A stretch of DNA of 38,435 nucleotides from Lachnospiraceae bacterium (GTDB lineage: Bacteria > Bacillota > Clostridia > Lachnospirales > Lachnospiraceae), in assembly GCA_017626095.1 (NCBI GenBank), contig JAGAJL010000006.1, positions 1 to 38,435 of the forward strand. The letters run 5' to 3'. Under the pieces are notes generated by a model. That model was not told the DNA's origin. It saw only the letters and a list, made by a program, of their open reading frames with translations, and ran no database searches. Position numbers and translations under genes: made by a program. This document shows positions 22 to 36,433 of the stretch, one piece after another (position 1 is the stretch's first letter; each line of letters opens with the position of its first letter).

Positions 22-133
22 GTGGGTCAAATCACAGTGTAAAAATCAGAAATAATAAAAAAACTGACCCATACCCGAAAAATATTGGGGTGGGTCAGTT
101 TTAAACGAAAAAGTGGGTCAATTTTACTTGACA
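22..133. mobile_element. Probable terminus of an IS21-like insertion sequence
   Basis: The motif GTGGGTCA occurs three times in direct orientation (22-29, 90-97, 113-120) and once inverted as TGACCCA (65-71). The last copy runs into TTTTACTTGACA ending at 133, so the terminus read inward on the minus strand begins TGTCAAG. Several short repeats close to a TG...CA end are characteristic of IS21-family termini. The body of the element would lie left of the window. No target duplication can be checked because the other end is absent. Other IS families with multi-repeat ends are possible. Confidence 0.4.
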
Positions 134-156
134 ATCCACAAGGGGAGGAATTTAAA

Positions 157-264
157 ATGGGAAGACATGGCGGTGCATCCAATGCCGCACAGAATGAGGT
201 TTGTCCTTATTGTGGAGGGTTATTAAAAATTAGCGATGGCAATAAAAAATTTGTCAGCTCGTAG
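157..264 (+). CDS. Small CPYCG zinc-knuckle-like protein (35 aa)
   Basis: This short frame starts at ATG 157, eight bases after a good ribosome site (GGGGAGG near 142-148), and ends at TAG 264. The peptide contains a single CPYCGG motif (residues 17-22), which resembles half of a zinc ribbon. With only two cysteines it would need to dimerise, or it is the stump of a longer protein. It begins 24 bp outside the putative IS end, so the insertion may have cut its upstream region or fused a foreign promoter to it. The function is unknown. The ribosome site favours a real gene, but a remnant is equally possible. Confidence 0.4.
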   Translation: MGRHGGASNAAQNEVCPYCGGLLKISDGNKKFVSS

Positions 265-354
265 CGGGCGGAGTTTAAACATTTTTTGATTGCGGGAGTA
301 GAGAGTATAAAGCAATCAGGAGAACAAAGTATAAAAGATTGAGAGAAGACAGAA

Positions 355-1002
355 ATGAAATACAAACTTGCAATATTTGACATGGACGGTACGATATTAA
401 ATACGCTTGAGGATTTGACAGATTGCATGAATTATTCCCTGGCAGTCCATGATTATCCACAAAGAACAATTGACGAAGTAAAAAGCTTTGTAGGAAATGG
501 AATAAAAAAGCTTGTGGAAAGAGCTGTGCCTACAGGGATAAGCAAAGAAGAGGTTGAGAAAGTTTTTCAAACATTCAATGATTATTACAAAGATCACTGT
601 GCAATTAAAACAAGACCGTATGATGGTATCAATGAAGTGATAAGGGAAATGAAAGAGAAAGGAATTCTGACAGCCGTTGTGTCAAACAAGGCGGATTATG
701 CGGTAAAAAGTCTTTGCGATGACTATTTTAAGGGTTTGTTTGATTTTGCAATCGGAGATCGCCCGGGGCATCGGAGAAAACCATATCCGGATAATATCAA
801 CGCCATTTTGGAAAACTTTAAAATAGATAGAAGTGAAGCTGTATACATCGGAGATTCCGAAGTCGATTTGCAAACGGCGAAGAATGCTGATATGGATGTG
901 ATTATGGTAGGCTGGGGCTTTCGGGATGAAGATTTTATTAAAAGTCAGGGAGCGGAATTTGTAATCCAAAATCCTTTGGACTTATTACCTTTTTTTAAAT
1001 GA
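355..1002 (+). CDS. HAD-superfamily phosphatase, phosphoglycolate phosphatase-like
   Basis: This is a 215-residue cytoplasmic hydrolase of the haloacid dehalogenase superfamily, Gph/PGP-like subgroup. Motif I is FDMDGT with nucleophile D9 and acid D11. Motif II is VVSNK (S110), motif III is the lysine in RRKPYPD (K142), and motif IV is GDSEVD (166-171). The helical cap between residues about 15 and 85 is the subtype usual for phosphoglycolate and beta-phosphoglucomutase-like enzymes. A purine-rich GAGAGAAG precedes ATG 355. It stands alone between the IS end and the chemoreceptor. The natural substrate cannot be read from sequence: phosphoglycolate, pyrophosphate or sugar phosphates are all possible. 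Confidence 0.9.
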   Translation: MKYKLAIFDMDGTILNTLEDLTDCMNYSLAVHDYPQRTIDEVKSFVGNGIKKLVERAVPTGISKEEVEKVFQTFNDYYKDHCAIKTRPYDGINEVIREMKEKGILTAVVSNKADYAVKSLCDDYFKGLFDFAIGDRPGHRRKPYPDNINAILENFKIDRSEAVYIGDSEVDLQTAKNADMDVIMVGWGFRDEDFIKSQGAEFVIQNPLDLLPFFK

Positions 1003-1093
1003 TTTTTATTATTTTATCGATTTGTCATAATTTTTCAAAAAGAGATTTGTATTGTCCGGAGGATGTAAAGATAACTGGAAAGAGAAAAACTCT

Positions 1094-1121
1094 TTTACAA
1101 GAGAAAACCATAGTCTATAAT
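1094..1121 (+). promoter_or_regulatory. Sigma-A-type promoter of the chemoreceptor gene
   Basis: TTTACA (1094-1099) and TATAAT (1116-1121) are separated by 16 bp and sit 40 bp upstream of the chemoreceptor ATG. I saw no sigma-28-like motif here, so the receptor appears to use the housekeeping factor rather than a flagellar one. Confidence 0.6.
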
Positions 1122-1160
1122 AGTAATTGGATTGAGTGTTTGTAAAAAAGGAGGGGGAAT

Positions 1161-3086
1161 ATGAAGCTTAAGACAAGACTTTCATTAATCTTTGGAACCG
1201 TTGTTCTTGTGATTGTCGCAACAATTGGAATTGTAACATACAATAAAAACGTGGAAATGGGAACAGCAGATGCCAAAAAGACAATGCAGATTTCCGCAGA
1301 ATTGGCGGCAAAGGAAATTGAGGGGAAATTATCTGATTTTAAGAATATGGCGCAGGCGTCCGGATACGATTCTGTTTTAGCTTCGTCAGGACAGGATGAT
1401 GTTGTTGCAAATCACATCGATAATCTTGCAGAAAACTATGAATTTACCAGCGGCAATATTCTTACGATCGATGGGGTTAGCCGTAAGGACGGAACAGATT
1501 TTAGTGATCGTGATTATGTAAAAGAAGCGTTGGCAGGAAATGTCAATATTTCTAACTTAACCTTGAGTAAATACACCGGCAATTACGGATTTAGCGTGGC
1601 CTCTCCTGTTCGTGACAAGAATGGGGAAATAAATGGTGTTGTCTATTTCCGTATGGACGTTGATTTCATGAGTAAGATCCTTGATCAGATTGTAATCAGC
1701 GAAGGAAGCTATACATATTTGGTCGACGGAAACGGAATGGTAATCGTTCATCCGGATGAGTCGTTGATCGGAGAATACAATATCACAGATGCCGAAAAAG
1801 GTATGGGAAGTGTTTCTGACATGATATTGTCCCAGACCTCAGGTGCAGGGGCATATGATAACAACGGTACGGAGTATTTATGCGGATATAGTCCGGTTGC
1901 AGGTACGAATGGCTGGACGATTGTTGTAACAGCGCCGAAAAATGATTTTATGGGTGCAACCTATGATACCATGAAGACGCTTTTGGTAGTAGATGTTGTG
2001 GCACTTGTCGTGGCGCTTGTTTTGGCCGTATTTTTTGCGGGAAGCATAGGAGAAGCGGCTCATCAGGTCAGTTTGGCGTTAACCTCTCTTTCCGAAGGGA
2101 ACCTAAATCATGAAATTAAGCCCGGTATGCGAACAGATGAGATCGGACAGCTTCAGAATTCTGCCAGAGAGTTACAGCAGACATTTAAAAAGATAATAAA
2201 TGAGACAAACAAGATTTTGGGCGGAATGGCAGATTACGATTTGACACAGCCTGCTATGAATTCCTATCCGGGAGATTTTAATCAGTTATCAGATTCTGTA
2301 AATCAAATCAGAGTGATTCTTCAGAGGCTCATTAAGGAAGTGCAGGAATCGGCATATTCTGTCGGAACGAGCTCCCGCGAATTGACGAATGCGGCAGATT
2401 CGCTGGCATCGGGCAGCGTTACACAAGCATCCTCCATCAATCAGCTGGTATCAAATGTTGAAGATATGGCAGAATGCATTGCACGCAATTCGGAAAGTGA
2501 GGAACAGGTACAGGAACGTTTGCAGAAATTGGATGCCCTGATTATAGATGGTAATCATAAAATGGAGCAGCTTTGTGAAGCTGTTAATCAGATTGAGAAT
2601 ATGTCATCCGGTATTCAGAATATTATCGGTACGATTGAATCGATTGCATTCCAAATCAATATTTTGGCATTAAATGCATCTGTGGAGGCTGCGCGTGTCG
2701 GAGAAAGCGGGCTTGGATTTGCGGTAGTTGCCGATGAGGTTGGCAATTTGGCAACTAAGACGACAGAGTCTTCTAGGCAGACAGCGGAGATGGTCACCGA
2801 TTGTTTGAATAAAATCGAAGGTGCTATGCACTGCGCAGATTCAGCTTCAAAATGTCTGAGGGATATTGTTGAAAATTCTGAGCAGATTTCAAAAGCATTT
2901 AAAGATATCTCAATAGATACAAAGGAACAGGCAGATAAATCATCACATATCAAGCTTGAGATATCAAATATTTCAGAAGTTGTTCAGGTTAACTCTGCTA
3001 CTGCGGAGGAAACTGCGGCAGCAACAGAAGAGTTATCTGAGCAGGCCAAGAATCTGACTCAGTTGATTTCAAAATTCCGCGTATAA
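1161..3086 (+). CDS. Methyl-accepting chemotaxis protein with dCache sensor
   Basis: This 641-residue transmembrane chemoreceptor starts at ATG 1161 behind AGGAGGGGG. Domains in order: TM1 (about 7-27); an extracytoplasmic Cache-type ligand domain (about 30-265), with LTIDGVSRKDGTDFSDRDY and a second repeat around SYTYLVDGNGMVIVHP indicating a double Cache; TM2 (about 272-294); HAMP (about 295-348) followed by a second HAMP-like stretch; and the cytoplasmic signalling domain (about 395-641). The hairpin tip around IAFQINILALNASVEAAR (495-512) is the CheA/CheW contact. No C-terminal CheR-docking pentapeptide is present; the protein ends ISKFRV. A two-domain hemerythrin gene follows 99 bp downstream, which suggests, without proving, a link to oxygen or redox taxis. 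The ligand is unknown. Confidence 0.93.
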   Translation: MKLKTRLSLIFGTVVLVIVATIGIVTYNKNVEMGTADAKKTMQISAELAAKEIEGKLSDFKNMAQASGYDSVLASSGQDDVVANHIDNLAENYEFTSGNILTIDGVSRKDGTDFSDRDYVKEALAGNVNISNLTLSKYTGNYGFSVASPVRDKNGEINGVVYFRMDVDFMSKILDQIVISEGSYTYLVDGNGMVIVHPDESLIGEYNITDAEKGMGSVSDMILSQTSGAGAYDNNGTEYLCGYSPVAGTNGWTIVVTAPKNDFMGATYDTMKTLLVVDVVALVVALVLAVFFAGSIGEAAHQVSLALTSLSEGNLNHEIKPGMRTDEIGQLQNSARELQQTFKKIINETNKILGGMADYDLTQPAMNSYPGDFNQLSDSVNQIRVILQRLIKEVQESAYSVGTSSRELTNAADSLASGSVTQASSINQLVSNVEDMAECIARNSESEEQVQERLQKLDALIIDGNHKMEQLCEAVNQIENMSSGIQNIIGTIESIAFQINILALNASVEAARVGESGLGFAVVADEVGNLATKTTESSRQTAEMVTDCLNKIEGAMHCADSASKCLRDIVENSEQISKAFKDISIDTKEQADKSSHIKLEISNISEVVQVNSATAEETAAATEELSEQAKNLTQLISKFRV

Positions 3087-3185
3087 GCGGAGTGTAGAAC
3101 TGCTTTGTGGAAAGAGACACAGGATACACAAGAATAATTCTGATGAGAAAAAAGAAAGAGATGTTTCTTAAAAGGAGAAAGGAAA

Positions 3186-4007
3186 ATGTTTCAATTTACG
3201 AAAGACTGCATGCTTGGAATCGAGCAGATTGATAAAGAGCATCAACATTTGTTTGAATTAATCAATGATGGAATCGAAATCCTGCAAAATGAATATGTAG
3301 GAGAACATTATCGAGAAATCAAGGAGCTGCTGGCAGAGTTAGAAGAATATGCAGAGGAACATTTTGCCCATGAGGAAGCCTATATGGAAAAAATACGTGA
3401 TCCGGAACTGATTCTGCAAAGGACACAGCATATGTTTTTTAGGGAGAAAATCCGGGAATGGTCGTTCTATAATATCGATGAGGAAGAAAGCCAGAGAGAA
3501 CTTTTGGGAGCTTTGATGCAGTTTCTGGCAAAGTGGCTGTATCATCATATTATAGGCAGTGATGTCATGATTGGAAAATTGCCGCCGCTTGAGGAATGGA
3601 TGATTCGAGAGAATCCATGTGAATTCACAGAGGAGTATATGACAGGAATCGAGTTGATTGATAAAGAGCATCAGACCTTGTTTGAGATTATGGAACGTGC
3701 AAACCGTCTGATTCATAATTATGTGGTCGGAGATGCTTATGATTCCATTATGGAAATTCTGCAGGAACTCAAGCAGTATACCGTCTGCCATTTTTCAGAT
3801 GAAGAAGAGTATATGGAGAGTATTCATTATGCCGGGCTGGAAGCACAGAAAAGGGCACACGCAGCATTTATTGATAAAATCGATGGCATCCGTACAGAAG
3901 ATATCGACCAGAATCCGCGTGAATATTTAGAGAGTCTGATGGAATTTCTGCTCGGCTGGTTGGTTAATCATATATTATATTCGGATAAAAAAATCGCACA
4001 AGAGTAG
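3186..4007 (+). CDS. Bacteriohemerythrin with two tandem hemerythrin domains
   Basis: This 273-residue soluble protein is two hemerythrin domains in a row (about 1-131 and 145-273), so twice the usual single-domain length. Hemerythrins bind O2 at a non-heme di-iron site. Visible ligands are H19, H59, E63, H82, H121 and D126 in the first domain, and H162, H202, E206, H225, H262 and D267 in the second. In both domains the histidine expected four residues before H82/H225 is glutamine (Q78, Q221), so each site lacks one canonical iron ligand. AAGGAGAAAGG precedes ATG 3186. The gene lies between a chemoreceptor and a GH3 enzyme and may buffer or sense oxygen in an anaerobe. Confidence 0.9.
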   Translation: MFQFTKDCMLGIEQIDKEHQHLFELINDGIEILQNEYVGEHYREIKELLAELEEYAEEHFAHEEAYMEKIRDPELILQRTQHMFFREKIREWSFYNIDEEESQRELLGALMQFLAKWLYHHIIGSDVMIGKLPPLEEWMIRENPCEFTEEYMTGIELIDKEHQTLFEIMERANRLIHNYVVGDAYDSIMEILQELKQYTVCHFSDEEEYMESIHYAGLEAQKRAHAAFIDKIDGIRTEDIDQNPREYLESLMEFLLGWLVNHILYSDKKIAQE

Positions 4008-4035
4008 CAGAAATTAAAATGGGAGATTATGCAAA

Positions 4036-6321
4036 ATGAAAATAGAGCAGATCAAAGAACTCGTAGGGAAAATGACGTTAGAGGAGAAGGCGGGTTTATG
4101 TTCGGGTGATGATTTCTGGCATACAAAAGCCGTGGAGAGGCTGGGAATTCCGGCAATCATGGTTTCAGATGGCCCTCACGGTCTTCGAAAACAGGATCAG
4201 GAAGCTGATCATCTGGGTGTGAACGAAAGTATTAAGGCTGTTTGTTTTCCGACAGGCTGCGGTGTGGCAACATCCTTTAACAGAGAACTGATCGGCAAAA
4301 TGGGACAAACACTTGGTAATGAATGTCAGGCAGAGAATGTCAGCGTGATTTTAGGACCGGCGGTCAATATCAAACGTTCTCCGCTCTGTGGAAGAAATTT
4401 TGAGTATTATTCAGAAGACTCTTATCTGGCAAGTGAGATTGCGACGGCCCATATTAACGGGGTACAGAGTAAGCATGTAGGAACCAGTATAAAGCATTTT
4501 ATGGCAAACAATCAGGAAACGAGAAGAATGTCGGTAGATGCCATCATTGATGAGCGTGCCCTGCATGAAATATATCTTGGTGCTTTTGAAGGCGCAGTGA
4601 GACAGGCAAAGCCGTGGACAGTCATGAGTTCCTACAATAAAGTAAATGGTAGCTATGTGGGTGAAAACAAGGAACTGTTGACGGATATTCTGCGCGATGA
4701 ATGGGGCTTTGATGGCTTTGTTGTCAGTGACTGGGGTGCTGTAAGTGACCGTATCAAAGCATTACAGGCAGGACTGGATTTAGAGATGCCGGCTTCAGGT
4801 GGAATGCGGGATGCTCAGATTGTAAAAGCCGTACAAGACGGAACACTTAATGAGAATGTACTTGATACGACATGTGAACGTATCTTAAACATCGTATACC
4901 GCTATATGGAGAATCGCGATGAAAATGCCGTATTTGATTTAGAGGCAGATCATGAAAAGGCGAGAGAAGTTGCACATGAGACCATTGTACTTTTGAAAAA
5001 TGAGGATGATATTTTACCTCTCAAAAAAGATGCAAACATAGCGTTTATCGGAAAATATGCACAAAAGCCGAGGTATCAGGGCGGTGGAAGCTCTCATATC
5101 AATAGTAAAAAAGTAACCTCTGCGCTGGATGCGATTAAACAAGCCGGAATCACAAACATTACTTTTGCGAAAGGCTTTGACGATCAAGTTGACGTAGTAG
5201 ATGAGGTCTTGGAGGCAGAAGCGATAGAGGCAGCAACCAAAGCAGACGTTGCGGTTGTGTTTGCCGGATTACCGGATGCTTTTGAATCGGAAGGCTTTGA
5301 CAGGGAGCATATGCGCATGCCGGAATGTCAGAATCATTTGATTGATGAAATTTTAAATGTGCAGCCTAACACCGTTGTGGTTTTACACAACGGCTCCCCT
5401 GTGGAGATGCCCTGGGTCAATGAGGTAAAAGGTATTGTAGAAGCATATCTTGGTGGCGAAGCTGTCGGCGGAGCGGTTGTTGATATTCTGTTTGGCGATG
5501 TAAATCCGAGTGCAAAGCTGGCAGAGACCTTCCCTTATCAGCTTGAGGATAATCCGTCTTATTTAAGCGGATTTGGCAGTGGTGACAGCGTAAATTATGC
5601 AGAGAGTATTTTTGTCGGTTATCGTTACTATGATAAGAAAAATATGCCCGTCATGTTCCCATTTGGCTTCGGACTTTCCTATACAACTTTCGATTACAGC
5701 AATTTGAAAGTGGATAAAAAAGAGTTATCAGATCAGGAAACTTTAACTGTCAGTGTAGATATCACAAATACGGGAAAAGTGACAGGTAAAGAGATTGTAG
5801 AACTCTATGTGGCAGATAAAGAGAGTACGGTCATCAGACCACTCAAAGAATTAAAAGGTTTTGAAAAAGTTTTGTTACAGCCGGGTGAGACAAAGACCGT
5901 GACTATGACTTTGGATTGGCGTGCGTTTGCTTATTATGAGCCGAAGATGAAAGACTGGAATGTGGAGACGGGAGAGTTTGAAATCCTGATTGGTAAGTCT
6001 TCGGAGGAGATTGTTCTTACCGAAACAGTTGTAGTAAAAGGTACAAAGAAGATGCCGGTTACTTATACGGTAAATACCACGTTTGGTGATTTGCCGACCA
6101 TGCCGCAGGCAATGGAAATTATAGAGCCGATTTTAACGGCGTATAATCAGAGTCAAATAACTTCTGATGATGAGAATTCTTCTGCTTCTGAAGCAATTAC
6201 AGCCGAAATGAATGCTGCCATGGAGAAATTCATGCCCCTGCGTGCAGTTATTTCTTTCTCAGACGGAAAGATTACACCGGATCAGATAGAGGAAGCTGTT
6301 AATAAATTGAACAAATTATAA
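4036..6321 (+). CDS. GH3 beta-glucosidase (cytoplasmic)
   Basis: This 761-residue glycoside hydrolase family 3 enzyme cleaves beta-linked glucosides or xylosides and has no signal peptide, so it probably acts on imported oligosaccharides. The N-terminal barrel shows SIKHFMANNQE and GFVVSDWGA with nucleophile D232. The second alpha/beta domain begins near AHETIVLLKNEDDILPL. A fibronectin-III-like domain follows (TNTGKVTGKEIVELYV and LKGFEKVLLQPGETKTV). An acidic C-terminal extension of about 90 residues, rich in Ser/Glu, follows and is not needed for the fold. The ribosome site is GGGAGA, and the gene starts 28 bp after the hemerythrin stop, so cotranscription is likely. A strong terminator follows. 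Confidence 0.93.
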   Translation: MKIEQIKELVGKMTLEEKAGLCSGDDFWHTKAVERLGIPAIMVSDGPHGLRKQDQEADHLGVNESIKAVCFPTGCGVATSFNRELIGKMGQTLGNECQAENVSVILGPAVNIKRSPLCGRNFEYYSEDSYLASEIATAHINGVQSKHVGTSIKHFMANNQETRRMSVDAIIDERALHEIYLGAFEGAVRQAKPWTVMSSYNKVNGSYVGENKELLTDILRDEWGFDGFVVSDWGAVSDRIKALQAGLDLEMPASGGMRDAQIVKAVQDGTLNENVLDTTCERILNIVYRYMENRDENAVFDLEADHEKAREVAHETIVLLKNEDDILPLKKDANIAFIGKYAQKPRYQGGGSSHINSKKVTSALDAIKQAGITNITFAKGFDDQVDVVDEVLEAEAIEAATKADVAVVFAGLPDAFESEGFDREHMRMPECQNHLIDEILNVQPNTVVVLHNGSPVEMPWVNEVKGIVEAYLGGEAVGGAVVDILFGDVNPSAKLAETFPYQLEDNPSYLSGFGSGDSVNYAESIFVGYRYYDKKNMPVMFPFGFGLSYTTFDYSNLKVDKKELSDQETLTVSVDITNTGKVTGKEIVELYVADKESTVIRPLKELKGFEKVLLQPGETKTVTMTLDWRAFAYYEPKMKDWNVETGEFEILIGKSSEEIVLTETVVVKGTKKMPVTYTVNTTFGDLPTMPQAMEIIEPILTAYNQSQITSDDENSSASEAITAEMNAAMEKFMPLRAVISFSDGKITPDQIEEAVNKLNKL

Positions 6322-22681: not shown

Positions 22682-22721
22682 TCAAAAGAAAAATACGATT
22701 TTCACAGCGAGGGGAGATATG

Positions 22722-23222
22722 ATGAGTAAAGCACTATTAGTTGTTGACATGCAGGAATTAACTGTGGGAAAAAATCATGCAAAAATATTTGACTATCCGG
22801 TAGATTTTCTGGATAAGGTTAATACAGCAATTGGTAATACAGATGCAGATATTGTTATCTATATTAGAAATCTGATGAAAAATAATCTGATTAACAAGTT
22901 GGCTCCTTTTAAATGCTTTGAAGGAACAAAAGAAGCCGAACTTGTAGCAGAATTAAAGGTGGTTAGCAATAATGTGTTTGAGAAATATGAAGGTAATGCA
23001 TTCTCAAATACGGAATTGATATCTTTTTTAAAAAAAGAGAAAATTACTGAGATTGAGGTTATTGGTGTAGATGGAGGAGGATGCGTAGCTCTTACGGCTT
23101 TAGGAGCCCTGGAGTGTGGTTTTAAGGTTACTCTAAATACATCTTATATAGGAACAGTATTTGAAAAGCAGAGGGATAAGTATTATCAGAAATTGCAGGA
23201 AAAAGGTGCAGTTATTTTATAG
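22722..23222 (+). CDS. Isochorismatase-family cysteine hydrolase
   Basis: This is a 166-residue hydrolase of the isochorismatase-like superfamily, which includes nicotinamidase and related amidases. The catalytic triad is visible: D9 in LLVVDMQE, K88 in EKYEGNAFSNT and C121 in GVDGGGCVALTALGA. No metal-site DxHxxH as in nicotinamidase is seen, so that activity is unlikely. GGGGAG lies five bases before ATG 22722; the adjacent ATG 22719 is too close to it. It may share a transcript with the XRE regulator upstream. The substrate is unknown. Confidence 0.85.
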   Translation: MSKALLVVDMQELTVGKNHAKIFDYPVDFLDKVNTAIGNTDADIVIYIRNLMKNNLINKLAPFKCFEGTKEAELVAELKVVSNNVFEKYEGNAFSNTELISFLKKEKITEIEVIGVDGGGCVALTALGALECGFKVTLNTSYIGTVFEKQRDKYYQKLQEKGAVIL

Positions 23223-23253: not shown

Positions 23254-23329
23254 AAACAAAACGGCGGTGAATTGACACAAACAAACGGCGGTGAATTGAC
23301 ACAAACGAGCGTTGACCGCCGTTTTGTTT
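23254..23329 (+). repeat. Terminator-like stem enclosing a 24-bp tandem repeat
   Basis: Two identical 24-bp units lie head to tail (23259-23282 and 23283-23306; core GGCGGTGAATTGACACAAAC). A third, inverted partial copy follows, so AAACAAAACGGCGGT (23254-23268) pairs perfectly with ACCGCCGTTTTGTTT (23315-23329). It could end the hydrolase transcript. The repeats, read in reverse, begin GTGTCAATTCACCGCC and recall multi-repeat IS ends, so a leftover IS terminus is an alternative. Confidence 0.55.
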
Positions 23330-23384
23330 TAGTGTATATTAATTACTTAATATAAGGAATTTTGGTTGAGCAGAGGATTATATC

Positions 23385-25562
23385 ATGAAAATTGTGAACC
23401 TGATTGAGAATAATATTGGAAATCCGGCCTGTATTGCACAGCATGGTTTGAGCTTCTATTTTGAAACAAAAAAACATAAGGTCTTGGTTGATTCCGGAGC
23501 GGACGCATCGTTTTTGGAAAATGCAAAGGTGCTTGGACTGGACCTGACACAAGTGGATGTTATGATACTAAGCCACGGACATTATGATCATGCCGGCGGT
23601 ATTTTAGGATTTGCCGATTTAAATCCGAATGCGACGATTTATATGCAGTCGACAGCGGATGGAGATTATTATGCAATTTCTAAGGACGAAAATGAATATA
23701 TCGGAATCGATAAAGAAATTACAAAGCTGAGACAGGTTCAAAAAATAGATGGAAATCTGAAGATCGATGAAGAATTATCGTTATTTTCCGGTGTTACCGG
23801 AAGAAGAGGTTTTTCGAAGAGCAATCTTAGGCTAAAGGAAATTGTAGGCGGAGACATCAGGCAGGATTCATTTTTGCATGAGCAATATCTTGTGGTGGAA
23901 CAGGAAGGAAAGAAATATCTGTTTTCCGGCTGTGCGCACAACGGTATTTTAAACATTCTGGATTGTTTTAGGGAAATTTACGGATGTGATCCGGATGTGG
24001 TCATCAGTGGATTTCACTATATGAAAAAAACGGCTTACTCGGAAGAAGAAGTCCGGATTATTACGGATACGGCAAAAGAACTTGCAAAATATCATACACA
24101 ATTTTTTACCTGCCATTGCACGGGCATTCCCGCATATGAGATGATGAAACCGATTATGGGAGAAAAACTTCATATGGTAAACAGCGGCGATATCATAGAG
24201 TTTTATCCGATAAAAAAGGCTGAGAATGTCAACACGGATAAAATCGTGCCCGTTGTGGTCCCGGGTTCAAAATCGATTACAAACAGGGCACTTTTAATCG
24301 CAGCCATGGCAAATGGAAAGAGTACCTTGAAAGGTTGTCTGACCAGTGAGGATGCCACTCATTTTTTGGAGTGCATTAGGACTTTGGGCTTTCCGGTAGA
24401 AGTAGTTAGCGATGGACAACTTGGTGGCGATATTACGATTACCGGATTTGGTGGGGATATTCCCAATAAAAAGGCAGAAATATATGTAGGAAGCGCAGGA
24501 ACCGCAGCCAGATTTTTGGTGGCTATGCTTGCTTTTTCACAAGGAGACTATGTGGTCAATTCTTCCAACCAGATGAAAAAGCGCCCCATGCAGCCGTTGA
24601 TTGAGACCTTGAGAAATGCCGGTGCTTTTGTAGAGTGCATGGAAGAAGAAGGTCATTTTCCGTTACATATCGTCGGTATTGGAAAGAAAGAAAAGATTCC
24701 GGAAAAAATATCCGTAAATATTGATAAAAGTTCTCAATTTTTGAGTGCGTTACTGATTGCTGCCGGAACTTTTGGCAAAAAAACAGAAATTGAAGTTGTC
24801 GGCTCTCATGGATTAAGCTATGTGGATTTGACGGCAGATATGATGAAAAGTTTCGGTGTTTCTGTTATCAAAAAAGAGGTAGATGGTCAGGTATTTTATG
24901 AACTTTCCGGAACCGACTGTTATCATGCGCTAACCTATGATGTTGAGCCGGATATGTCGGCAGCTGCGTATTTTTATGCACTTGCAGCGATTCTCGGAGC
25001 AAAGATTTCGGTAAGTGGTGTTAGAGAGGATATGCTTCAGGGAGATACGCAGTTTCTGGATCTCTTAGAAAAGATGGGATGCAGGAAAAAGCTGATAGAT
25101 CAGACTTTAATAGATGCACAAAAACTTTCCGATTCGTGTCTGGGAAATATTCTGTTAGAAGGTCCTGCAGGCGGAAAATTAAAAGGCGGATTTACCATAG
25201 ATATGTCTGCGTTTTCCGATCAGGCACTTACGCTTGCTGCCATTGCCCCTTTTGCGGATGCTCCTATTTCTATTGTCGGAATTGGTCATATCCGTTTGCA
25301 GGAATGTGACCGGATTCGGGCCATTGTCGATAATTTGACCGCAATGGGCATCCAAGTCGAAGAAAAAGAGGATGCTGTTACCATTTATCCGGGGCTTCCA
25401 CACTGTTGCGACGTCGCAACATATGATGATCATCGTGTGGCGATGTCATTTGCCCTGACCGGCTTGCGGACAGAGGGGATTTACATTATGAATCCCGCCT
25501 GTTGCAAAAAGACCTTTGCACAATATTTTGACGTGTTGGAAGATACCTTAAAAAAATTGTGA
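23385..25562 (+). CDS. Metallo-beta-lactamase-fold domain fused to EPSP synthase
   Basis: This single 725-residue frame joins two enzymes. Residues 1-275 are an MBL-fold metallohydrolase of the MptE/RomA-like group: HGHYDH (64-69) plus H185, H211 and H244 supply the metal site. Residues about 284-725 are a full-length 3-phosphoshikimate 1-carboxyvinyltransferase (AroA), step six of the shikimate pathway: PGSKSITNRA (293-302), GSAGTAARF (369-377), KRPMQPL, DKSSQFLSAL, acid D523 in EPDMSAAAY, E640 in RLQECDR, and DDHRVAMSF. Normal AroA is about 430 residues. There is no stop, frameshift or ribosome site at the junction, and AroA's usual first strand is shortened against a linker of about 10 residues. 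AGAGGA precedes ATG 23385. No other aro gene is nearby. Confidence 0.9.
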   Translation: MKIVNLIENNIGNPACIAQHGLSFYFETKKHKVLVDSGADASFLENAKVLGLDLTQVDVMILSHGHYDHAGGILGFADLNPNATIYMQSTADGDYYAISKDENEYIGIDKEITKLRQVQKIDGNLKIDEELSLFSGVTGRRGFSKSNLRLKEIVGGDIRQDSFLHEQYLVVEQEGKKYLFSGCAHNGILNILDCFREIYGCDPDVVISGFHYMKKTAYSEEEVRIITDTAKELAKYHTQFFTCHCTGIPAYEMMKPIMGEKLHMVNSGDIIEFYPIKKAENVNTDKIVPVVVPGSKSITNRALLIAAMANGKSTLKGCLTSEDATHFLECIRTLGFPVEVVSDGQLGGDITITGFGGDIPNKKAEIYVGSAGTAARFLVAMLAFSQGDYVVNSSNQMKKRPMQPLIETLRNAGAFVECMEEEGHFPLHIVGIGKKEKIPEKISVNIDKSSQFLSALLIAAGTFGKKTEIEVVGSHGLSYVDLTADMMKSFGVSVIKKEVDGQVFYELSGTDCYHALTYDVEPDMSAAAYFYALAAILGAKISVSGVREDMLQGDTQFLDLLEKMGCRKKLIDQTLIDAQKLSDSCLGNILLEGPAGGKLKGGFTIDMSAFSDQALTLAAIAPFADAPISIVGIGHIRLQECDRIRAIVDNLTAMGIQVEEKEDAVTIYPGLPHCCDVATYDDHRVAMSFALTGLRTEGIYIMNPACCKKTFAQYFDVLEDTLKKL

Positions 25563-25579
25563 TATAGCAATATGATATG

Positions 25580-25646
25580 ATACCAGGGTCAAAAGGTCAT
25601 ACTTTTCATGCTCGCATGAAAAAGTATGACTTTGGGACCCTGGTAT
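25580..25646. terminator. Long nested hairpin after the fusion gene
   Basis: ATACCAGGGTC (25580-25590) pairs with GACCCTGGTAT (25636-25646). Inside it, GTCATACTTTTCATG (25596-25610) pairs with 25615-25630 with one bulged A. The 67-nt hairpin may terminate the fusion gene, but it is much longer than needed and part of it (25589-25609) recurs at 34676-34696, so it is likely a dispersed repeat. Confidence 0.6.
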
Positions 25647-25701
25647 TATTAAATTCTCATACTTGCGCAGAGCGCGAAACAATTCGTAGATATCATGGAT
25701 A

Positions 25702-32989: not shown

Positions 32990-33588
32990 TGGATTTATAT
33001 AGTGGATATATCAGCCGATTAATTGAAGAATTGTCTGCTTTGCCCGGAATCGGTAATAAATCCGCACAGCGTCTGGCGTTTTATCTGGTAAACCAGCCCA
33101 AAGATAAGGTGAAAAAGCTTTCGGATGCTATCGTGGAGGCCAGGGATAAAGTGCAATATTGTTCCTGCTGCTGTACGCTGACGGACCGTGAGATATGTCC
33201 GATTTGTGCCAATGAGAAAAGGGATCACAGTACGATTATGGTTGTGGAAAATCCGCGCGATCTTGCTGCCTATGAAAAAACAGGCAAATTTGAAGGGGTA
33301 TACCATGTCCTTCATGGTGCGATTTCGCCGATGCTTGGAATCGGACCCGGAGATATCAGGTTAAAAGAATTGATGCAGCGTTTACAGACGGATGACGTTA
33401 CAGAAGTTATCATTGCAACAAATTCCAGTCTTGAAGGTGAAACGACGGCTATGTATATCAGCAAACTGATTAAACCGACGGGAATTAAGGTGACGCGGAT
33501 TGCGAGCGGAGTGCCGGTCGGAGGAGATTTGGAATACATCGATGAGATTACTCTGTTGCGGGCTTTGGAAGGACGCACGGAGCTATAA
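32989..33588 (+). CDS. recR: Recombination mediator RecR
   Basis: This 199-residue repair protein works with RecO/RecF in loading RecA at gaps. A helix-hairpin-helix ([19 protein letters not shown]), a C4 zinc finger (C58, C61, C70, C73) and a Toprim domain (about 81-175, [15 protein letters not shown]) are visible. The start codon overlaps the ybaB stop by one base, which indicates translational coupling. Confidence 0.97.
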
Positions 33589-33619
33589 ATATGAAGGGTA
33601 CCATAAGGGAGGATGCAAT

Positions 33620-34663
33620 ATGATTACAGAAAAGGTTTTCGGACAGACGCAGGACGGACAGACAGTCACACTCTATTCGATTTCCAATGAAAATGGATTT
33701 CAGGCAGATGTTATGAATTACGGAGCGATTCTTGTCAATCTGTTTGTGCCGAACAAAAGAGGAAAAGTAGCCGACGTGACCCTTGGCTATGACAATTTAA
33801 AAAAATATTTTACAAACAGTAACTTTTTCGGCGCATCGGTTGGACCGATTGCAAACAGAACCGCAAATGCTGTTTTTGAAATCGATGGTACGAAGTATCA
33901 GTTGAAAGTAAATGATGGTGTGAACAATCTGCACACGGATTTTGATGGCGGATTTCACAAAAAGCTTTGGAAAGCTAAGATCGATAAAAAGAATAACAGT
34001 GTCATTTTTTCACTGACAATGGAAGATGGTGAGCTTGGGCTCCCGGGAAACAGAGAGTTTTCCATTACATATTCCGTGACGGATGATAACGGATTAAAAA
34101 TTGTTTATACGGGAAAGACAGATAAAAAGACAATTTTCAATCCAACCAACCATTCTTACTTCAATTTAAAAGGACATGATGCAGGAAGTGTTTTAGATGA
34201 AACACTTTGGTTAAACTGCTCAAAATATACAAAGATTGTTCCCGGTGCGATTCCGACGGGTGAGCTTATAAGTGTAGAGGATACGCCGCTTGACTATACC
34301 AAAGAGATGCCTTTGGGAGCACGTATTCGTCGCCATTTTGAACAGATGACCATGGTATGCGGTTATGATCACAACTATGTCAGTGATGCCAAACCCGGCA
34401 AGCTGGAAAAAATTGCCGTATTATCCGATGCAAAAGCCGGCAGGACGATGGAAGTCTATACGGATATGCCAGGTATTCAGGTTTATACGGGCAATCACAT
34501 CGGAAGACATTTGGGCAAAGGCGGAGCGCATTACAAGAGAAGATGCGGCGTTGCGCTGGAAACACAGTTCTTCCCCAATAGTGCAAATGATGAGCACTTT
34601 ACCAGACCTTTACTTGAACCCGGCAAGGTATTTAAATCTACAACGATTTATAAATTTGTATAA
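33620..34663 (+). CDS. galM: Aldose 1-epimerase (galactose mutarotase)
   Basis: This 347-residue enzyme interconverts alpha and beta anomers of galactose or glucose. Catalytic histidines lie in VNNLHTDFDGGFHKKLW and NPTNHSYFNL, and the catalytic glutamate in ALETQFFPNS. AGGGAGG (33606-33612) is seven bases before ATG 33620; the frame is open back into recR but that part is a shadow. It follows recR by 31 bp and may ride on the dnaX transcript, or have a promoter inside recR that I cannot see. No GalK or GalT is nearby. Confidence 0.95.
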   Translation: MITEKVFGQTQDGQTVTLYSISNENGFQADVMNYGAILVNLFVPNKRGKVADVTLGYDNLKKYFTNSNFFGASVGPIANRTANAVFEIDGTKYQLKVNDGVNNLHTDFDGGFHKKLWKAKIDKKNNSVIFSLTMEDGELGLPGNREFSITYSVTDDNGLKIVYTGKTDKKTIFNPTNHSYFNLKGHDAGSVLDETLWLNCSKYTKIVPGAIPTGELISVEDTPLDYTKEMPLGARIRRHFEQMTMVCGYDHNYVSDAKPGKLEKIAVLSDAKAGRTMEVYTDMPGIQVYTGNHIGRHLGKGGAHYKRRCGVALETQFFPNSANDEHFTRPLLEPGKVFKSTTIYKFV

Positions 34664-34675
34664 TTTAAATGATAA

Positions 34676-34731
34676 TCAAAAGGTCGTACTTTTCATCTCT
34701 GCCAATTTTGTTATCGACAAAATGAAAAGGA
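34676..34731. repeat. Second copy of the dispersed hairpin repeat
   Basis: Bases 34676-34696 match 25589-25609 at 20 of 21 positions. Here the matching arm CTTTTCAT pairs with ATGAAAAG downstream, and ATTTTGT (34705-34711) pairs with ACAAAAT (34717-34723). Only the left part of the first hairpin is shared. Confidence 0.45.
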
Positions 34732-34766
34732 AATCTTTTTCGTGTCCTATGTTTTTATGTATAAAA

Positions 34767-34797
34767 AAGACTGTTTCGATAAAACGGTCTTTTTTTA
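34767..34797 (+). terminator. Terminator after galM
   Basis: AAAGACTGTTT pairs with AAACGGTCTTT (one T-G pair) around a small loop and is followed by a run of T. Confidence 0.8.
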
Positions 34798-34886
34798 TTT
34801 CCTTTTTTGTCATAAAAAAGAAAAAACGTCTGCCGGAAAATGATAAAATTCGCCATCCCGTATATGTTATATACATAGTAAGGAAA

Positions 34887-34914
34887 TTGAGACAGGCTTT
34901 TTGCCGGGTACAAT
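34887..34914 (+). promoter_or_regulatory. Candidate promoter of the LysM gene
   Basis: TTGAGA (34887-34892) and TACAAT (34909-34914) are 16 bp apart, 59 bp before the start codon. Confidence 0.45.
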
Positions 34915-34972
34915 TTTTCCGCAAGCATTTTCAATGATCAAAGATACAGTAATAAAGAAAGAGGGTAATCGT

Positions 34973-36433
34973 ATGATAGAGATTGTGAAAGAGAACGGAA
35001 ATGTGGTTGACAAGAGAGAAATTCCGGCTAACTTAAGACCGGTGGGAGACCCGAAGGGAAATGAAAAAATATATATTGAAGACTATATTGAAACGTTTAT
35101 TAAACAAATTGCGGTTAAAGACGATTCCCCCAAGGTATTGATCTTATATGGAGAAAACCGGCAGGAAGATGAAATGATTCACCACTATGTTTGCGGAGCG
35201 ATTCTCGCAGAGGAAATTCTGACTGATGAAAAAATGATTTTCAGGGATTCAATATGGAAAGACGTAAACTGGAAGGCGGGGCATTTTTTTCCCAATCTTC
35301 AGGTAGTCGGATGGGCTTATATCCGATATGATTTAGCAGATTTTGCGCAGGGTAAGGTGCAATATACACACAACCGTTGTTTTAGAAAAGATCAGAATGT
35401 GTATCTGGAATATTCTGCAGTAGAAAAAAAAGAAGAAGTTTTTTTGGTTAAAAATGAAGTTATGGAAAAACAGAGTGGCCATTTTATATATTATGAAAGA
35501 AATGAGCAGATGCAGAATTATATGGTTACCATGAAACAGGACGAGCCGGAAGAAATCAAACCGGAGGTTGATCTTGCTGCAAAAAAATGCAGAGGGATTG
35601 TCAGAGGCAAAAAAGAAGAATTGAAACATAAACAGACCATGGGAATGTTGTATGGGACAAGCATGGCGATGCTTTTGGTGATTACGATTGTCGGAGTGAC
35701 TTTGTTAAACAATTACAACAAGATGCAAGATATGGAAAAGGTGCTCTCTGATATTTCCAATCAGATGTCACAAAGTAACCGGAATGATCTTGAAGAGACG
35801 AATGCCATTTCAGATTCCGTTCTTGCAGATAAGGATGCTTTGCCTCAGGAAAATCTTTTGGCAGAAAACACAGAAGGAATGGAAGCGGATGAGATTGTGA
35901 ATAAAGATGCAGATGGCATTGCAAATGAAAACGAGGATGGCGATACGAATAGTTCTGCATCTTCAGAAAACGGAGAATTGGCTTTGGCAGATACTGCAAC
36001 GGATGCATCAGCAGAAGCAGCCGATAAGACAAAAGAAACGAATGGTACGAATGATGTATCAGAAACAAATGCAGAGCAAACAACGGTATCGGATTCTGCA
36101 AATAATTCATCTCAAAAAAGTGCAGATGAAACGGCAAATAGTGCAACAGAAAAAGTTGTTTTGCAAACGAGTGATGAGGAAGTCCTTATATCAAATGATG
36201 ATTCGGTGGAGATTACAGAACAGGAAAATGCAGATACAACTCTTGCAGATTCGCAGGGATCATCGGATCAGACTATTCAGAATAAAACTTATCGGATAGA
36301 AAAGGGTGATACCTTAAGTAAAATCAGTTTGAAATTTTATGGAGATGAGTATCATATTGATGAGATTTGCAGACTGAATCAGATTTCAGATAAAAATGAA
36401 ATACGATACGGTGTTAACATCGTTCTTCCATAA
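34973..36433 (+). CDS. Single-pass membrane protein with C-terminal LysM domain
   Basis: This is a 486-residue protein. A cytoplasmic N-terminal domain (about 1-215) is followed by one membrane helix (about 222-246, MLYGTSMAMLLVITIVGVTL), a long Asp/Glu/Asn/Ser/Thr-rich extracellular linker (about 260-430) and a LysM peptidoglycan-binding domain (about 439-486, YRIEKGDTLSKISLKFYGDE). The N-terminal segment with LQVVGWAYIRYD recalls an MPN/JAB fold whose catalytic HxH motif is absent; this is a weak inference. GAGGG lies seven bases before ATG 34973. It probably anchors the membrane to the cell wall. It heads a three-gene cluster with the next two genes. Confidence 0.8.
   Translation: MIEIVKENGNVVDKREIPANLRPVGDPKGNEKIYIEDYIETFIKQIAVKDDSPKVLILYGENRQEDEMIHHYVCGAILAEEILTDEKMIFRDSIWKDVNWKAGHFFPNLQVVGWAYIRYDLADFAQGKVQYTHNRCFRKDQNVYLEYSAVEKKEEVFLVKNEVMEKQSGHFIYYERNEQMQNYMVTMKQDEPEEIKPEVDLAAKKCRGIVRGKKEELKHKQTMGMLYGTSMAMLLVITIVGVTLLNNYNKMQDMEKVLSDISNQMSQSNRNDLEETNAISDSVLADKDALPQENLLAENTEGMEADEIVNKDADGIANENEDGDTNSSASSENGELALADTATDASAEAADKTKETNGTNDVSETNAEQTTVSDSANNSSQKSADETANSATEKVVLQTSDEEVLISNDDSVEITEQENADTTLADSQGSSDQTIQNKTYRIEKGDTLSKISLKFYGDEYHIDEICRLNQISDKNEIRYGVNIVLP

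Follow-up and report, generated by a model that had tools for sequence, protein, structure and literature searches.

A metallo-beta-lactamase-fold domain and an EPSP synthase encoded in one reading frame in a small clade of Lachnospiraceae

EPSP synthase, the product of aroA, is the target of glyphosate. In fungal AROM it lies within a longer chain whose other parts are further shikimate enzymes, and two NCBIfam models describe bacterial proteins in which it shares one chain with a different enzyme, namely AroA-cytidylate kinase (NF008816) and prephenate dehydrogenase-AroA (NF011381). A preliminary description of the locus analysed here, in which AroA was said to be normally stand-alone or part of AROM, was therefore incomplete with respect to bacteria. 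Multi-domain EPSP synthases are reported to be rare in bacteria and usually to comprise two domains (PMC9394408). For the metallo-beta-lactamase (MBL)-fold protein Tflp, a study of the superfamily describes an Asp-to-Cys change in motif 4 and an additional Cys after the motif-5 His, near the di-iron centre, as well as an Fe-S centre held under reducing conditions (PMC7785958). In a limited literature search, no biological role for Tflp-like MBL proteins was found (cf. PMC7785958).

In the 38,435-nucleotide stretch of Lachnospiraceae DNA analysed here (the window), both kinds of domain are encoded by a single gene that starts with ATG, ends with TGA and contains no internal stop (Table 1), confirming the uninterrupted two-domain frame of 725 codons first described. 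Only Lactamase_B (residues 21–107, whole-protein E 2.9e-14), Lactamase_B_2 and EPSP_synthase (residues 290–718, E 4.5e-92) exceed the Pfam cut-offs in the fused protein, and its sequence relatives in the PDB are EPSP synthases, AROM entries among them, for the C-terminal part and Tflp (2p4z) and TM1679 (3h3e) for the N-terminal part. The structural model of the fused protein proposed in the preliminary description was of low confidence (mean pLDDT 62.6, pTM 0.43, five-sequence alignment), being too weak for the spatial relation of the two domains, and was used solely for assigning the fold of the AroA part. A fold search with this model retrieved EPSP synthases with TM-scores by target length of up to 0.87, and the best 50 of 899 matches (130 at E <= 0.001) were EPSP synthases or AROM/Aro1 chains together with one designed protein (4n3p). 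No metallo-beta-lactamase was among these best 50, leaving the MBL part without confirmation from the fold search.

Table 1. Features of the fused gene and its flanks, in window coordinates.
Feature	Coordinates	Strand	Basis or remark
Upstream inverted repeat, 18-nt arms 40 nt apart	23254..23329		Inverted-repeat scan
Promoter-like TTGACC-17-TATATT, 44 bases before the ATG	23312..23340	+	Consensus match only; best of 14 in the region
Fused gene, MBL-fold domain and EPSP synthase	23385..25562	+	725 aa; frame, Pfam, NCBIfam
Tflp/TM1679-like MBL-fold domain, residues 1–273	23385..24203	+	Conserved H64, H66, D68, H69, E166, C183, H185, H211, H244, C245
GGGAG, then in-frame ATG (M264) after 11 bases	24158..24176	+	Kept in 3/3 carriers; also encodes the MBL tail
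AroA N-terminal segment right after the junction, residues 274–289	24204..24251	+	Comparison with stand-alone relatives
EPSP synthase domain per family models, residues 290–725	24252..25559	+	TIGR01356, 359 bits; EPSP synthase folds
Downstream inverted repeat, 30-nt arms 13 nt apart	25577..25649		Inverted-repeat scan; possibly a terminator

Promoter consensus matches are more frequent in the region than in shuffled sequence (14 vs 6.2). A terminator scan with a loop limit of 8 bases listed one site, inside the gene (23784–23804), and did not pick up the two inverted repeats in the flanks. Elsewhere in the window, a frameshift suspected from overlapping open reading frames at 33500–36433 turned out to be two genes, for an aldose epimerase and a LysM-domain protein.

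By whole-protein search, the fusion is present in three of the nine genomes of the genus: the window's own, G151 (97% protein identity; locus L045 in MAG RGIG406, from dairy cattle colon) and G086 (95%; locus L046 in MAG SRR11489746_bin.3). All three are draft assemblies, of 55, about 60 and about 70 contigs. In the family it was found in two genomes, the window's and G086, both in a search of 150 genomes (among the matches listed) and in a stricter one of 397 genomes (E <= 1e-130), which gives the count of the two-domain order in Lachnospiraceae that the preliminary description had proposed. Searches of 392 genomes of the order and 398 of the phylum (each at E <= 1e-110) returned the window's own fusion only; the family, order and phylum samples overlap, and the three strict searches may miss fusions of two poorly conserved parts. 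A pattern scan of an 84,980-species collection, which detects close relatives only, yielded four loci, two of them fused, one with a lone aroA (L047) and one with a lone MBL gene (L048). The lone aroA belongs to the ninth member of the genus (G155, RUG305). Among the genomes sampled, the fusion is restricted to one small clade.

The C-terminal part scores as AroA (TIGR01356, 359.3 bits vs a cut-off of 287.25) and far below the cut-off of the murA model (42.7 vs 392.7). The motifs PGSKS, SAGTA and DDHR are present, and D523, E640, K296, R301, R400, R643, R684 and K709 are invariant in all 34 aligned AroA rows, of which we take D523 and E640 to be catalytic and the others to bind substrate. A complete EPSP synthase carrying D523 and E640, as originally proposed, is thus borne out by the full-length family match, and the AroA part is expected to make EPSP canonically from shikimate-3-phosphate and PEP. 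The window's genome (86.6% complete) contains three PF00275 genes, of which only the fusion exceeds the aroA cut-off and the two others score as MurA; likewise, nothing but the fusion exceeds the TIGR01356 cut-off in G151 (99% complete) and G086 (100%). This search for a second aroA in the host, also suggested at the outset, makes the fusion the only recognised AroA of all three carriers within their assemblies. In line with the described position outside any aro operon, aroC, the sole other aro gene located, lies on another contig; aroC was found in all three carriers.

Five other members of the genus (G150, G152, G153, G154 and G156) have only a distant AroA-side match, with 27–29% identity to the fusion. 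The two of these tested, G150 and G152, have a gene that passes the aroA cut-off, and in three loci read among L037–L040 and L044 PGDKSISHRA replaces PGSKSITNRA. The distant types suggest that the AroA lineage was replaced within the genus. G152 additionally has two stand-alone MBL matches. A folate link was also considered. An MBL-type dihydropteroate synthase, as in archaea, could have become fused to the pathway that produces chorismate. A literature search did not turn up this enzyme, and there is no need for it, a canonical folP being over cut-off in all six genomes tested, including the three carriers.

The N-terminal part matches Tflp over fusion residues 5–267 (E 2.3e-33) and TM1679 over residues 19–256 (E 5.8e-21). 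The HxHxDH motif and the histidines H185, H211 and H244 named in the preliminary description are present, although its list of the metal site left out two invariant cysteines: in all nine aligned MBL rows H64, H66, D68, H69, H165, E166, C183, H185, H211, H244 and C245 are unchanged. Tflp and TM1679 likewise keep HxHxDH, E166, C183, H185, H211 and H244–C245, including the two cysteines, whereas an Asp stands in place of H165; their chains, of 284 and 267 residues, have no second domain, unlike the fusion. By our own reading of the sequence C183 occupies the motif-4 position. Since C183 and C245 fit the description of Tflp, a redox or iron-type site appears more likely for the MBL part than a plain zinc hydrolase of the classical kind. 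The cut-offs for class B beta-lactamases are missed widely (30.8 bits vs 240 for subclass B3 and 31.3 vs 100 for the class B core), and among the best 25 of 47 NCBIfam families listed no beta-lactamase model comes near its cut-off.

Neighbouring genes, named by eye from open reading frames, vary among seven loci with stand-alone MBL relatives, and guilt by association therefore gave no common neighbour. The window's genome itself encodes one more MBL of this family, which stands alone (L069, 9590–10396, 56% identity), adjoining a small gene that by eye resembles a glyoxalase/VOC protein. In L048, a gene ahead of the stand-alone MBL gene (22–5901) encodes a repetitive, Cys/His-rich protein of very large size that includes a long ETPTPEPV repeat.

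The two parts look to have been joined end to end, and the first strand of AroA to have been kept whole. In five of eight stand-alone MBL relatives the chain stops where fusion residue 272 or 273 aligns, and the other three (L076, L077 and L042) extend past it; L048 has the tail HMVHSGECLDI where the fusion has HMVNSGDIIEF. For AroA, the distance from Y274 to VPGSKS is 18 residues (the Tyr counted), exactly as in the nearest stand-alone AroAs read, L006 and L047, which speaks against the earlier view that this strand was shortened; in more distant relatives the stretch varies in length. The starts of stand-alone AroAs are uncertain, having been taken as the last ATG more than 12 residues ahead of the motif, and under this rule L007, L009, L015 and L027 begin after the Tyr, with the first ATG of L047 lying 26 residues before it. 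The junction had also been described as free of a ribosome site, which is not quite so: the GGGAG ahead of M264 is a possible but weak candidate for an internal start, one that might allow some separate synthesis of AroA. A putative MBL remnant before aroA in RUG305, aligned through a common GxLHM, was not convincing, the local DNA alignment score of 31 being just above the 95th percentile of 500 single-base shuffles (30, maximum 41) over a stretch that includes the shared AroA start.

The flanks of the fused gene were compared with those of aroA in RUG305. The neighbours named here were mostly read from translations. L047 and the window share an aconitase gene farther upstream and, downstream, genes for a GntR regulator, an ABC protein, a pseudouridine synthase and phosphofructokinase, and between these flanks L047 has aroA without an MBL at the corresponding place. 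Directly upstream of aroA, L047 has genes for a TetR regulator and for an ABC exporter, where the window carries one for an HTH regulator and one of the isochorismatase-fold type; the fused gene's immediate upstream neighbours in the window are partly different from those in L046 too. Because these neighbours differ, the flanks do not show how the MBL gene arrived. The isochorismatase-fold gene just upstream (window 22719–23222) aligns continuously with L045 and not with L046.

In the AroA tree (16 rows) the fused proteins of the three carriers group together as a clade (100/98) adjoining the non-fused L047 (91/91, below the 95/80 mark), and in the MBL tree (11 rows) the fused clade (99/96) adjoins the stand-alone L048 (99/98); both trees hold part of the rows, and midpoint rooting was for drawing only. 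Within the sequence retrieved, an MBL match was absent from all 50 non-fused loci with an AroA match (tblastn, E <= 1e-3). Of these, 45 are of the same AroA type (type A) and represent 40 gene places, with that of L052 cut at a contig end, and the flanks covered were as a rule about 1.1–1.5 kb upstream, about 8–10 kb for three and 6 kb for RUG305. As a refuting case, the preliminary description had named relatives in which each part is consistently a gene of its own, with a stop at the junction; the relatives examined have no MBL gene here, and an ancestral MBL and aroA operon was rejected for want of a neighbour pair among the non-fused aroA places. The simplest reading of the trees and gene order would be that an MBL gene arrived once ahead of aroA and was joined to it once, in a recent ancestor, a scenario preferred, not firmly, to a loss of the MBL part in RUG305.

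Several other explanations of the fused frame have to be weighed. An assembly or sequencing merge of two genes comes to mind because all three carriers are draft assemblies and the two named records are MAGs. In agreement with the preliminary description, it is nevertheless scarcely credible, since the same frame and junction recur without a stop in three assemblies that differ by 2.5–5.5% of bases over the fused gene. In estimates based on these three sequences, dN/dS is 0.125, 0.083 and 0.078 for the three pairs in the MBL part and 0.133 and 0.128 for two pairs in the AroA part, the value of 0.29 for the window and L045 resting on only two changes; the junction segment has 1–2 synonymous and 1–2 nonsynonymous changes per pair, too few to judge (ratios 0.53, 0.13 and 0.13). 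Both domains are under purifying selection, which together with the common junction speaks against a merge as well as against a decaying MBL part. Between the window and L045, DNA identity is 99.8% in the AroA part (24252–25559) and 93.8% in the MBL part, suggesting recent recombination within the fused gene. A neutral joining, in which the MBL has a function of its own and the fusion brings only a shared promoter, would agree with the occurrence of the fusion in one small clade among the genomes sampled and with the scattered MBL relatives. We consider it unlikely in view of the frame kept unbroken across this divergence; the MBL as a decaying passenger is opposed by its dN/dS of 0.08–0.13 and by its conserved metal-site residues.

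Enzyme fusions often join steps of one pathway. Such a link, and the selection on both domains, could favour a true two-step enzyme, with a metabolite of the shikimate pathway or compounds derived from EPSP or PEP as the substrate of the MBL domain, close to the hydrolase near the shikimate branch that was first envisaged. The Cys-bearing, Tflp-like site does not favour such a hydrolase, no MBL match lies beside any of the 40 non-fused type-A aroA places within the flanks covered, and the stand-alone MBL relatives keep differing company; a two-step enzyme is thus very doubtful. A redox- or metal-responsive regulatory domain tuning EPSP synthase activity would suit C183 and C245, which match the pattern of Tflp with its reported Fe-S centre under reducing conditions (PMC7785958). 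There is no sign of contact between the domains, the predicted structure being of low confidence, and we hold this role to be distinctly improbable. Highly speculative as well is a role of the Tflp-like domain as a redox sensor or redox enzyme with iron or an Fe-S centre, which would govern the sole EPSP synthase of a gut anaerobe or be governed by it; if true, the synthesis of aromatic amino acids would be switched directly by redox state.

The account we favour, and regard as probable, is a young end-to-end join of a canonical EPSP synthase and a tethered, independent Tflp-like activity. In the ancestor of a small clade within this Lachnospiraceae genus, a Tflp-like MBL gene would have landed directly 5' of a stand-alone aroA and then fused with it end to end. 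The single polypeptide would then supply the cell's only recognised EPSP synthase, working by the canonical reaction, and the independently folded, metal-binding N-terminal domain would carry out separate, probably redox- or iron-related chemistry. The tether would set a 1:1 supply of the two activities, with substrate passing between the domains not indicated. As the fusion is the only recognised AroA, the enzyme seems to tolerate a large N-terminal domain, and a natural fusion of this kind suggests that EPSP synthase works with such a domain attached. In addition, the fusion could offer a handle on Tflp-like MBL proteins.

Compared with stand-alone AroA (TIGR01356, PF00275), to which it matches in full length, the fusion differs by its N-terminal domain of about 273 residues. 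Like NF008816 and NF011381, it places EPSP synthase and another enzyme in one chain, but the partner is a different one: the scores are 294.9 and 164 bits vs cut-offs of 943 and 902, and no cytidylate kinase or prephenate dehydrogenase domain exceeds the Pfam cut-off in the fused protein. As in AROM, EPSP synthase is part of a longer chain, whereas none of the shikimate enzymes that accompany it there is detected by Pfam. A targeted literature search found no report of an MBL-AroA fusion, in agreement with the preliminary description, although a data set of 1175 multi-domain proteins (PMC9394408) might include one. Bacterial AroA fusions are thus a known kind, here with an MBL partner for which no report was found in the literature searched, and the present case appears to be a recent fusion of local extent, not a novel type of system.
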